Below, piece by piece: positions 45,841 to 48,784 of a stretch of DNA of 64,000 nucleotides (its first letter is position 1; the number at the start of each line of letters is the position of its first letter). This DNA is from Desertivirga arenae (GTDB lineage Bacteria; Bacteroidota; Bacteroidia; Sphingobacteriales; Sphingobacteriaceae). The stretch is taken from assembly GCF_017355785.1 (NCBI RefSeq), contig NZ_JAFEWE010000001.1:558001-622000 (forward strand), read 5' to 3'. Both the position numbers and the translations under genes were made by a program. Under the pieces are notes generated by a model, which worked only from the letters and a program-made list of their open reading frames with translations, was not told where the DNA came from and made no database searches.

Positions 45841-46938
45841 TTAATATACTTTCACCATGAATACGTAGTCCTTGATCTTCTTGATCTGATCTTTACGACT
45901 TAGGCCCGAAAGTGAATTTTTATTACTTAGGATCAGATCATCTTTCACCTCCTGAGGTGCCTCATCTAATGCCTCTATCAGATACTTGGATTTTACAGCG
46001 AAAGAAGCTCCGTCTACGTTATTTTCTTTACCACTGATAACCCCTAAAACATTTCCTTTTGTATCCAGTAAGGGACTGCCACTGTTACCGCTATTAACCG
46101 GAATATCAATTTGATATTGAACAGTATCACCTTTATACCCGGTTCTCGAACTTACATAACCAGTACCGAGTACATAATCTTCACGAGGAAACCCTAAAGT
46201 AAATACATTCTCTCCCAGATCAGCTGTTGATCTCTTAAAGGTGTATGGTAGAGACTTTAAGGATGAGAAGTTTTTATCTATGATCTGAAGAACAGCAATA
46301 TCGTACTGAGGTTGTGCATATACTTTTCTTGCTTTAAAAGAATTACCGCTGTTATCCTGGATATAAATTGAATCAGCGCCTTCAATCACATGATTATTGG
46401 TTACGATATAACCACTGGTCGTTAAAGCAAACCCTGTTCCGCTATATTCGCCAGGATTAACAGGGCCCTGCATGGAATGAGCCTTAATATTTTGCATTAG
46501 CTCTTTTTTGGAACGCTGGATCTTGCGATCAACTTCTTTGCTCATCTCTCTGCGGAGAGCATTATACCCTGATACAAGAGCATTACGCTTAGAAAAATAA
46601 CCAGTAGAGAATAAGGTACTGAAAACTGCCAGCAAAGCTACAGAAGCAGCAACAGCCGCATTCATTCTATATTTATCCCATAATTTGCGAACGATCATAG
46701 ACTTCGGAAGAACTTCTTCCTTAATTGCCCGCATATCAAGGGTTTCATGAATGGCATTCATATCAGAGATCAGCCTGTGCTTATTACCATAATCTTTCAG
46801 CTGCTCAATGAATGTTTGATGAGCGACTACCTGCTGATCTAACAAAGGATCTACTGCTCTTAGTTGTTCAAACTCGGCTTTTTCCCTCTCTGTCATCTCT
46901 CCCCTTAAGTAAGCCTCAATTTGTTCTGTCATTTTCAT
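45841..46938 (-). CDS. Membrane-bound fusion of anti-sigma-like segment and trypsin-like serine protease
   Basis: A 365-residue protein. Residues 1-90 are an acidic, helical cytoplasmic segment starting IEAYLRGEMTEREKAEFEQ, as in Bacteroidetes anti-sigma factors. A membrane helix spans about 93-113. Residues 120-155 are a charged coiled coil, and residues 165-325 a HtrA-type trypsin-like protease with His183 (NNHV), Asp213 (YDIAV) and Ser286 (GNSGSP). No PDZ domain is seen. It lies 12 bp after an ECF sigma gene. I infer that it holds the sigma factor at the membrane and releases it on envelope stress, perhaps by its own proteolysis. The anti-sigma activity is not proved. Confidence 0.85.
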   Translation of the reverse strand: MKMTEQIEAYLRGEMTEREKAEFEQLRAVDPLLDQQVVAHQTFIEQLKDYGNKHRLISDMNAIHETLDMRAIKEEVLPKSMIVRKLWDKYRMNAAVAASVALLAVFSTLFSTGYFSKRNALVSGYNALRREMSKEVDRKIQRSKKELMQNIKAHSMQGPVNPGEYSGTGFALTTSGYIVTNNHVIEGADSIYIQDNSGNSFKARKVYAQPQYDIAVLQIIDKNFSSLKSLPYTFKRSTADLGENVFTLGFPREDYVLGTGYVSSRTGYKGDTVQYQIDIPVNSGNSGSPLLDTKGNVLGVISGKENNVDGASFAVKSKYLIEALDEAPQEVKDDLILSNKNSLSGLSRKDQIKKIKDYVFMVKVY

Positions 46939-46950
46939 TTTTTAATAGCG

Positions 46951-47520
46951 TTAATCAGCTTGAAAAAATATCTTCTTCAAACGTTGCAGACACTTGTACT
47001 TTTGGTTCTTTGCATTATCTGCGTTCGTATAACCAAACTTTTCACAAATCTCCTGCATAGACTTATTGTGAATGTAAAAGTCTTCTATAATAGTTTTGCA
47101 CGGTTCCCCGAGATGAACGAGCGCCTTCTCCATTTGTTTGAACTGTTTATCCCTTTCTTCATGCTTCTCAAGATCCTGTTCAACCGGCAAAACGTCTTCG
47201 AAATCTTTAACGTTTCCGGCATTGCGACTAAGCTGACTCAGGCGCTTCAACCATAATCTCCGGCATACTGAATAGATAAACGTTTTAAGCTTGCTGTTCA
47301 GTTCAAAGTTTCCGCTTTTTACTTTATCATAAAGAACTAATACCGACTCCTGAAATATGTCTTTTGCATCATCTTCATTTCCGTTATTCATTACAATCAT
47401 CTGCAATATCATCGGAAAATATGCCTTGTAAACTTTTTCGAGGACGTCTTTTGAGCCATTAAGGATACCCAATATTACTTCACTATCCGTTGGTACAGAC
47501 CTCTTTATCTCTTTGCTCAC
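46951..47520 (-). CDS. ECF-type RNA polymerase sigma factor
   Basis: A 189-residue sigma-70 family protein with regions 2 and 4 only. Region 2 holds YFPMILQMI and DAKDIFQESVLVLYDKV; region 4 holds SMQEICEKFGYTNADNAKNQKYKCLQRL, a helix-turn-helix. The start is given as GTG at 47520, but the -10 of a shared promoter motif ends at 47524. Transcripts from it would be leaderless, or the true start is a few codons inside (for example TTG near 47472). It is followed by the anti-sigma/protease gene. It most likely directs transcription of itself and the two lipoprotein genes nearby. Confidence 0.9.
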   Translation of the reverse strand: MSKEIKRSVPTDSEVILGILNGSKDVLEKVYKAYFPMILQMIVMNNGNEDDAKDIFQESVLVLYDKVKSGNFELNSKLKTFIYSVCRRLWLKRLSQLSRNAGNVKDFEDVLPVEQDLEKHEERDKQFKQMEKALVHLGEPCKTIIEDFYIHNKSMQEICEKFGYTNADNAKNQKYKCLQRLKKIFFQAD

Positions 47521-47523
47521 TAT

Positions 47524-47552
47524 TTAATACGCTATTGTGTTAATTGTAACCC
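47524..47552 (-). promoter_or_regulatory. Probable ECF promoter of the sigma gene
   Basis: On the minus strand, GGGTTAC (47552-47546), 15 bases, GTATTAA (47530-47524). The same motif pair with the same spacing occurs before both small lipoprotein genes, which points to autoregulation. Confidence 0.75.
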
Positions 47553-47593
47553 AATGATAAGTAAAAAAAAAAATAATTATTTTATTAAAAGTT

Positions 47594-47622
47594 GGGTTAC
47601 TTTTTTGGTGACCTGGTATTAA
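47594..47622 (+). promoter_or_regulatory. Probable ECF promoter of lipoprotein gene 1
   Basis: GGGTTAC (47594-47600), 15 bases, GTATTAA (47616-47622). With the divergent sigma promoter it also forms a 9-bp inverted repeat, GTAACCCAA...TTGGGTTAC. The start codon is 44 bp after the -10 element. Confidence 0.75.
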
Positions 47623-47666
47623 GGTTAAATATTATTTGTTTAATCATTAAACTTGACCCCAAAAAA

Positions 47667-47888
47667 ATGAAAAATTTATTCAAATTCGGATTCGTTGCTT
47701 TAGCTATCTCTTTATCAGTTGCTGCTTGTTCTTCTAACAAGTCAGAAGGTGCTTCTGATTCAACTGCTGTTGATTCAGCTGCTGTTGATACTTCATTAGC
47801 TACTGATACTGCTGCTGCTGACACTGCTGCTGCTGACACTGCTGCTGCTGCAACTACTGATTCAGCTGCTGCTCCAGCTGCTCACTAA
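47667..47888 (+). CDS. Small Ala/Asp/Ser/Thr-rich lipoprotein 1
   Basis: A 73-residue lipoprotein with signal peptide and lipobox SVAAC (Cys21). The mature part is only low-complexity sequence: AVDSAAVDTS, then three ADTAA-like units, ending APAAH. It should be disordered and anchored to a membrane. The start is the ATG at 47667, behind an A-run; an upstream in-frame start would hide the signal peptide. A close paralog lies 540 bp downstream with the same leader. Function is unknown; control by the adjacent ECF sigma factor suggests an envelope-stress role. Confidence 0.82.
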   Translation: MKNLFKFGFVALAISLSVAACSSNKSEGASDSTAVDSAAVDTSLATDTAAADTAAADTAAAATTDSAAAPAAH

Positions 47889-47910
47889 GATCCGATTTAA
47901 CGGAATAAAG

Positions 47911-47940
47911 ACCGCCAGATAATATCTGGCGGTTTTTTTA
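47911..47940 (+). terminator. Terminator after lipoprotein gene 1
   Basis: ACCGCCAGAT and ATCTGGCGGT form a perfect 10-bp stem with a 3-base loop, followed by seven T. Confidence 0.93.
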
Positions 47941-48109
47941 TGCCTTTCTCACTCATTTTACATTCGACCAGTTTACTGATATCAAAGTAAATATTTCGAT
48001 CGTTGTAGAAACTCAAATAGTTTAAGTCCAGATATTTATCGTACCTTTATTTATCACTATAGAAGCAATACCTTTTCTATCGCTTCCATTGGCTTTAAAT
48101 CACTCAACC

Positions 48110-48153
48110 CTTATAGCGACCTTACAGCGACTTTATAGCGATCTTATAGCGAT
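48110..48153. repeat. Four-copy 11-bp tandem repeat
   Basis: Four units of (C/T)TTATAGCGA(C/T) follow without gaps: CTTATAGCGAC, CTTACAGCGAC, TTTATAGCGAT, CTTATAGCGAT. The period is about one helical turn. Confidence 0.9.
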
Positions 48154-48358
48154 ATTCCGCTAGTTTTACCCGTATATACTTCATACATAATGCTTAGTCT
48201 ACTTATTAATTAAGCTAGGAAAAGGTAGGGACCGCAAGCAGTTAAACTTCAGGCATCAGAACAATCTAAATAAGGTTAGAACTTAGCTTTATGCAATAGA
48301 TCTCCGAAAGGCTTTATTCGAGGACAATAAATCTTTTTTAAAAAAATCACCAGAACCC

Positions 48359-48387
48359 AGGTTACCTTCTTGAGATAATAGTATTAA
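48359..48387 (+). promoter_or_regulatory. Probable ECF promoter of lipoprotein gene 2
   Basis: AGGTTAC (48359-48365), 15 bases, GTATTAA (48381-48387). The 15 bases differ from those of lipoprotein gene 1, while the two boxes and the downstream leader are kept. Confidence 0.75.
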
Positions 48388-48431
48388 GGTTAAATATTAT
48401 TTGTTTAATCGTTAAGCTTAACCTCAAAAAA

Positions 48432-48650
48432 ATGAAAAATTTATTCAAATTCGGATTCCTTGCTTTAGCTATCTCTTTATCAGTTGCTGCTTGTGGTGGT
48501 TCAAATAAATCAGGTGGTGAAGGTGATTCAACTGCTGTTGATTCTGCTGCTGTTGATACTTCATTAACTACTGATTCAGCTGCTGTGGATACTGCTGCTG
48601 CTACTACTGATTCAGTTGCGACTGACTCAGCTGCTACTCCAGCTCACTAA
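48432..48650 (+). CDS. Small Ala/Asp/Ser/Thr-rich lipoprotein 2
   Basis: A 72-residue paralog of lipoprotein 1. The signal peptide is the same except for one residue (FGFLALAIS against FGFVALAIS), with lipobox cysteine at 21, followed by a short Gly-rich linker and repeats of the type STAVDSAAVDTS and TTDS, ending TPAH. The leader and promoter are also duplicated. The spacer between is not, so the copy was either old or limited to the gene and promoter. Function unknown. Confidence 0.82.
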   Translation: MKNLFKFGFLALAISLSVAACGGSNKSGGEGDSTAVDSAAVDTSLTTDSAAVDTAAATTDSVATDSAATPAH

Positions 48651-48667: not shown

Positions 48668-48712
48668 ATAAAAAAATCTGCTCAGGACTTCCTGAGCAGA
48701 TTTTTTTATTTA
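48668..48712. terminator. Terminator after lipoprotein gene 2
   Basis: A perfect 16-bp stem (48671-48686 with 48691-48706), loop ACTT, with A-run before and T-run after; works in both directions. Confidence 0.94.
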
Positions 48713-48737: not shown

Positions 48738-48784
48738 AAAAAGAGAAGGGCCTGCAAAACTAAATTTGCAGGCCCATCTCTTTT
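48738..48784 (-). terminator. Terminator of the RND efflux operon
   Basis: GGGCCTGCAAA (48748-48758) pairs with TTTGCAGGCCC (48765-48775); outer AGAG and CTCT extend it. The A-run at 48738-48742 is a T-run on the minus strand, just after the RND permease stop. Confidence 0.88.

Follow-up and report, generated by a model that had tools for sequence, protein, structure and literature searches.

Among described systems, the RpoE-RseA-DegS system of Escherichia coli resembles the locus studied here in comprising an ECF sigma factor, a membrane anti-sigma-like partner, a DegS-type protease, and envelope lipoprotein targets. The two differ in that a single protein, in which no PDZ domain was found, here unites an anti-sigma-like part with a DegS-like protease. 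The E. coli sigma-E promoter is of the GGAACTT/TCTGA type with N15-type spacing; the promoters described below share this type of spacing but differ in their letters (GGTTAC/GTATTAA). SigW-RsiW of Bacillus subtilis is a further counterpart: SigW (5wuq, E 4e-4) was the sole sequence relative of our sigma factor among solved structures, RsiW was one of four weak fold matches to the N-terminus of the membrane protein, and the spacer begins T-rich after the −35 box, as in SigW promoters. Unlike the present protein, RsiW lacks a protease domain and relies on separate proteases for its cleavage, and the SigW regulon differs from the present one.

Parallels also exist within the phylum. The Porphyromonas gingivalis ECF sigma factor SigH (PG1827, PGN_1740) is adjacent, by locus number, to the small lipoprotein PG1828. 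Against the PG1828-like family model NF050142, through which alone the comparison was made, lipoproteins 1 and 2 in the window (the whole 64-kb stretch of DNA analyzed) scored 37.4 and 40.7 bits, both below the cut-off of 50. PG1827 is described as required for adaptation to oxygen stress (PMC4800418). In the available portions of their descriptions, Das1/Dma1 and EcfO of Bacteroides are presented as ECF sigma factors with membrane anti-sigma factors that act on the envelope, Das1/Dma1 being linked to outer-membrane vesicles, and neither a protease fusion nor a common promoter motif appears in those portions (PMC12596196, PMC13088901). The SM6 promoters of Flavobacterium psychrophilum likewise form an ECF class and include that of an ECF sigma/anti-sigma pair, but they differ from the present motif in their CGT −10 box and their type IX secretion gene targets (PMC9723704). 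Only 6% of Bacteroidetes ECFs adjoin a class I anti-sigma domain (PMC7406223).

Bacteroidota have many ECF sigma factors, few of which have a known promoter. Our literature search for GGTTAC together with ECF sigma factors returned no description of the present system; the reference ECF classification lay outside that search and may already list this ECF group, perhaps even with its motif. The parts are of known kinds, and what appears to be new is sigma-E-like control with a probable anti-sigma and a DegS-like protease in one protein, together with an unusual autoregulatory promoter.

We regard the following overall scheme as very likely: the sigma factor would read GGTTAC-N15-GTATTAA, have a membrane-bound anti-sigma-like/DegS-like partner, and serve an envelope regulon. 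The sigma factor is probably kept inactive by the product of the next gene. This protein would sit in the inner membrane, with an N-terminus in the cytoplasm that resembles an anti-sigma domain and, on the periplasmic side, a DegS-like protease. A presumed envelope signal would lead to release of the sigma factor, which would then transcribe its own operon along with genes for one to several tiny lipoproteins, a DUF4349 lipoprotein, and a secreted DUF4294 protein. What the sequence itself shows is the motif and how far it is conserved, which genes it precedes, that it occurs together with the sigma factor, the catalytic triad of the protease, and the constancy of the gene order. The features of the locus are as follows.

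45841–46938, minus strand: membrane protein of 365 aa with an anti-sigma-like N-terminus, a transmembrane helix, and a trypsin/DegS-like protease domain
46951–47520, minus strand: gene for an ECF sigma factor of 189 aa, starting with GTG (TIGR02937, Sigma70_r2)
47524–47551, minus strand: GGTTAC-N15-GTATTAA, the ECF promoter site upstream of the sigma gene, with the −10 box ending 3 nt before the GTG
47595–47622, plus strand: ECF promoter site upstream of lipoprotein gene 1, transcription being predicted to start at 47628–47629
47667–47888, plus strand: small lipoprotein 1 of 73 aa, rich in Ala, Asp, Ser, and Thr, with a lipobox that ends in AAC
47912–47939, plus strand: terminator-like hairpin and T run after lipoprotein 1, the stem also being found when the minus strand is read
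48360–48387, plus strand: ECF promoter site upstream of lipoprotein gene 2, transcription being predicted to start at 48393–48394
48432–48650, plus strand: small lipoprotein 2, a 72-aa paralog of lipoprotein 1, likewise with a lipobox and rich in Ala, Asp, Ser, and Thr
48674–48707, plus strand: terminator-like hairpin and T run after lipoprotein 2, from sequence and stem search

The sigma factor and its probable promoter motif

The product of 46951–47520 fits an ECF (group 4) sigma factor, that is, a short member of the sigma-70 family with regions 2 and 4 only. Residues 27–183 matched TIGR02937 (E 9e-20; 70.9 bits, cut-off 42.9), and Pfam Sigma70_r2 scored 24.4 bits against a cut-off of 24. 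Of 151 family genomes, 136 carry a single ortholog, at 51–88% identity, the next paralogs lying clearly apart at ~35%; two further families of the class carry it at ~43–58% identity. The first group of relatives comprised Arcticibacter, Pararcticibacter, Hufsiella, Parapedobacter, Olivibacter, and Sphingobacterium (Sphingobacteriaceae), and the second, mainly Chitinophagaceae, included Niastella, Puia, Flavihumibacter, and Pontibacter.

A preliminary description of this DNA had reported three sites of the form RGGTTAC-N15-GTATTAA. We recovered all three at 47552–47524 (minus strand), 47594–47622 (plus strand), and 48359–48387 (plus strand), each with a spacing of exactly 15; the 64-kb window contains no other match, and 100 dinucleotide shuffles of it yielded none (0 expected by chance). 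The genome-wide search suggested there gave four exact matches to GGTTAC-N15-GTATTAA in the 6.19 Mb genome, three of which are the window sites. When up to two mismatches were allowed, the whole genome gave 178 matches versus 209 with a reversed-pattern control, and since this is no excess, only near-exact matches are informative. Two one-mismatch matches were dismissed as promoters because they lie within long reading frames on the opposite strand (L005, L006), and a third because no gene follows closely downstream (L007). A sigma-70-type promoter scan performed no better than on shuffled sequence, as expected for Bacteroidota, and Rfam gave no match in the region.

The promoters of lipoprotein genes 1 and 2 are nearly identical in the −10 box, the leader, and the gene start, and differ in the spacers and the upstream flank. 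In part they go back to one duplication, and the window therefore offers less than two fully independent observations here; the sigma site is independent of this duplication. The earlier statement that the resemblance is not only duplication holds for the sigma site and needs qualification for the two lipoprotein promoters, and comparison across genomes settles the matter. The partial duplication is also what could be cited for the idea that chance, or copying of one intergenic region, made three look-alike sites. That idea is refuted by the conservation of the motif over many genera with divergent spacers and at unlinked targets, and we consider it exceedingly improbable.

Across 80 named sigma loci of Sphingobacteriaceae, Chitinophagaceae, and relatives, the motif was found upstream of the sigma gene exactly in 72 and with at most one mismatch in 79, while the best match in shuffled upstream DNA of the same loci averaged 4–5 mismatches. 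Family genomes with the sigma factor (n = 136) contained 339 exact matches versus 40 for the reversed-pattern control, and those without it (n = 15) contained 3 versus 2, a background level. Four genomes with the sigma factor have no exact site; in the sigma-less genomes, lipoprotein matches were weak only, none of them a clear ortholog at which loss of the site could show. A divergent small lipoprotein gene behind its own motif site was present at 85 of 100 loci and the downstream protein of ~365 aa at nearly all of them, so that the conserved module consists of three genes: the ECF sigma factor, the membrane protease, and the divergent small lipoprotein. In the Parapedobacter and Sphingobacterium groups the lipoprotein gene is not beside the sigma gene, and an unlinked lipoprotein gene elsewhere bears the motif. 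The preliminary description had named absence of the motif beside orthologous sigma and lipoprotein genes as grounds for rejecting its proposal; in these relatives the motif is conserved beside both.

Across ~250 sites from both families, the −35 and −10 boxes are near-invariant; ~95% of the spacers are 15 nt long and the rest 16 nt, with a T-rich beginning, and GGTTAC mostly follows a G. In the lipoprotein promoters of both families, A occupies positions 6 and 7 past GTATTAA in ~76–86% of cases, which probably marks the transcription start. That the motif is a genuine conserved promoter element is virtually certain. Its two near-invariant, non-palindromic blocks at a fixed spacing of 15–16, its single orientation relative to the targets, the −35/−10 distance from the conserved AA, and its presence in step with the ECF sigma factor all argue against its being the operator of a different DNA-binding regulator, a reading to which the overlap of the motif with the start region of the sigma gene lends some appeal and which we judge very unlikely. 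The motif is, we consider, highly likely to be read by this sigma factor, and the pairing is strongly supported by sequence: lipoprotein genes unlinked to the sigma gene bear the motif, and genomes without the sigma factor remain at background.

Distant sigma factors (~30–36% identity; L099, L101, L102, L103, and L105) have TTCACCT-N14-GTCATTAA boxes upstream in a similar layout, as expected if promoter and sigma factor diverge together. In these distant relatives, which belong to other classes of the phylum, the TTCACCT/GTCATTAA boxes come with a GAAAGGTAAATG-like leader, giving a second conserved promoter type.

The adjacent membrane protease

The gene for the membrane protein begins 12 nt past the sigma stop codon. 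Its product has a helical N-terminus (~1–76), a transmembrane helix (~95–114), and a protease domain (165–326) that matched Pfam Trypsin_2 (E 5e-24), with a catalytic triad, H183/D213/S286, that is invariant across 96 homologs. The model of the full protein had a pLDDT of 84.6, the protease and the N-terminal helices being confident, and its best PDB folds were MucD and DegS without PDZ. Against the DegS family model the protein scored 64.4 bits, below the cut-off of 423; it would work like DegS and is not classed as DegS.

When the N-terminal part was modeled alone (pLDDT 88), the PDB fold search returned four weak matches (E 4–9.5), all of them anti-sigma factors (RslA three times, RsiW once), and a sequence-profile search of the same domain against the PDB gave chance matches only. 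The zf-HC2 profile matched 6 of 39 members, the window protein falling below the cut-off. The protein is encoded directly downstream of the sigma factor and spans the membrane, as do anti-sigma factors of the class I type. On the grounds of this gene position, the DegS and MucD folds, and N-terminal matches to anti-sigma factors only, we call it a probable anti-sigma/DegS-like protease fusion. From the gene order and the weak fold and profile matches, we infer that it is probably the anti-sigma factor of this sigma factor; that its protease activity takes part in signaling is an evenly balanced proposition. The preliminary description left this neighboring protease, the probable regulator of the sigma factor, out of its account of the system.

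Geometry of the sigma gene's own promoter

ECF sigma factors commonly control their own genes, and the preliminary description extended this to the present one. The part of that claim concerning a site before the sigma gene stands (79 of 80 loci), but a positive sign is called into question by a −10 box that ends 3 nt before the GTG. In 51 of 57 Sphingobacteriaceae promoters the sigma start codon (GTG, rarely TTG) follows the −10 box by 2–3 nt, whereas in the Chitinophagaceae group the distance is usually 10–16 nt. With transcription starting at the usual distance, the sigma transcript would lack its start codon in Sphingobacteriaceae and would have a leader of roughly 5–11 nt in Chitinophagaceae. 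In many genera no alternative start codon occurs within the first 25 codons. Because the sequences share ancestry, the two families may have come to differ only once.

One further element was found upstream of the sigma gene.

47552–47559, minus strand: TATCATTG, a sigma-A-like −7 element (compare TAnnTTTG) that abuts the ECF −35 box

This element differs from TAnnTTTG at one position. With the sigma-A −7 box placed at −12 to −5 (PMC9723704), the predicted sigma-A-type start is at 47547, giving a 27-nt leader and a transcript that includes the GTG. Of 57 Sphingobacteriaceae sigma promoters, 42 contain TAnn[A/T]TTG within 60 nt, versus 5.6 in shuffles, and in 32 of these 42 it touches the −35 box; it is not enriched in lipoprotein promoters (4/80) or Chitinophagaceae sigma promoters (3/58). 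At 4 of 133 loci (L054, L055, L058, and L082), all from Sphingobacteriaceae, the sigma gene has another ECF site of like orientation farther upstream, and further such pairs were present among the genome-wide matches (G081, G109, G125, G139, G140, and G144). In some genomes of genera g13 and g14 this upstream site would give a translatable sigma mRNA.

The sign of autoregulation is the clear question posed by this geometry, and the direction of the loop can be inferred in two ways. Ordinary positive autoregulation would follow if transcription began at the G of the GTG or 1–3 nt before it, producing a leaderless or nearly leaderless mRNA. Such a start would lie 3–4 nt past the −10 box, compared with 6–7 nt at the other promoters, leaderless GUG starts are normally inefficient, and the overlapping sigma-A-like element would have no explanation. 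Conversely, exact placement of this kind would require just the spacing of 2–3 nt that the family holds between −10 box and start codon, and the leader in the sister families is already very short, with the start codon 10–16 nt past the −10 box. Leaderless mRNAs exist in the phylum, making up 5.5% in Flavobacterium psychrophilum (PMC9723704), and ~3.7% of leaders in Bacteroides thetaiotaomicron are shorter than 10 nt (PMC7366714). We consider leaderless positive feedback plausible, at somewhat less than an even chance.

A second reading, specific to Sphingobacteriaceae, takes the AA at positions 6–7 as the usual start, so that with the −10 box 2–3 nt before the GTG or TTG in 51 of 57 promoters the ECF transcript would begin past the sigma start codon and yield only the anti-sigma protease. 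The sigma factor would instead be made from a housekeeping sigma-A-type promoter starting inside the ECF −35 box; as free sigma factor accumulated, its holoenzyme would occupy the overlapping ECF promoter and displace the housekeeping polymerase. As the shortened mRNA would still carry the anti-sigma protease gene, the loop would be negative. The lack of other early start codons in many genera is consistent with this arrangement, as are the sigma-A-like element in 42 of 57 promoters, unmatched by any enrichment in lipoprotein or Chitinophagaceae promoters, and the second upstream ECF site seen, among the loci compared, in Sphingobacteriaceae only (4/133). Against it, genera g3, g14, g15, g17, and g18 keep the same geometry without the sigma-A-like element, TATCATTG is one position off TAnnTTTG, relatedness leaves few independent events, and the start positions are themselves predictions. 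We therefore advance negative feedback by start skipping tentatively, as a rather unlikely reading; if true, it would have been kept across one family, with the sister family retaining a translatable arrangement.

Behind 120 sigma promoters of both families, the gene starts with GTG 98 times, with TTG 14 times, and with ATG 8 times. Such a weak start codon, kept over both families, may hold the sigma factor at a low level.

The proposed envelope regulon and neighboring elements

The preliminary description treated its three promoters as defining the regulon. This count proved too low: at least three further sites lie elsewhere in the genome, outside the window. One precedes a third small lipoprotein gene (one mismatch), one lies 309 nt upstream of a DUF4349 lipoprotein gene (exact), and one lies 125 nt upstream of the single DUF4294 gene (16-nt spacer, one mismatch). 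The motif also accompanies DUF4349 in genera g9, g13, g14, and g21 and DUF4294 in g21 and g25, and additional lipoproteins with the motif occur in many genera. In this genome, the lipoproteins are almost certainly targets, DUF4349 is a likely one, and DUF4294 a fairly probable one. The regulon is an envelope set that exceeds the earlier proposal yet is still small. The further proposal that the sigma factor reads the motif, with the lipoproteins as its main products, agrees with the conservation of the motif at both genes and with the lipoproteins being the most constant targets; for its first half, we infer the binding by the sigma factor from this pattern.

The tiny lipoproteins, DUF4349, and DUF4294 are hereby assigned to one envelope response. 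The promoter, the sigma factor, the probable anti-sigma/protease, and the targets can be read across Sphingobacteriaceae and Chitinophagaceae, and because promoter, sigma factor, and targets are readable in both families, the regulon can be tested in any tractable member.

Two genomes of genus g14 also have exact sites 27–30 nt ahead of genes for homologous membrane proteins of 227 aa (L152, L190), a possible lineage-specific member of the regulon. Matches confined to single genomes (L148, L153–L155, L157, and L205) did not recur and were set aside.

An 11-bp unit, CCTTATAGCGA, is present four times between the genes of lipoproteins 1 and 2 (48109–48152). Between lipoprotein 2 and a convergent RND efflux gene, a strong 11-pair hairpin, GGGCCTGCAAA...TTTGCAGGCCC, occupies 48748–48775 and is probably a terminator shared by these two genes.
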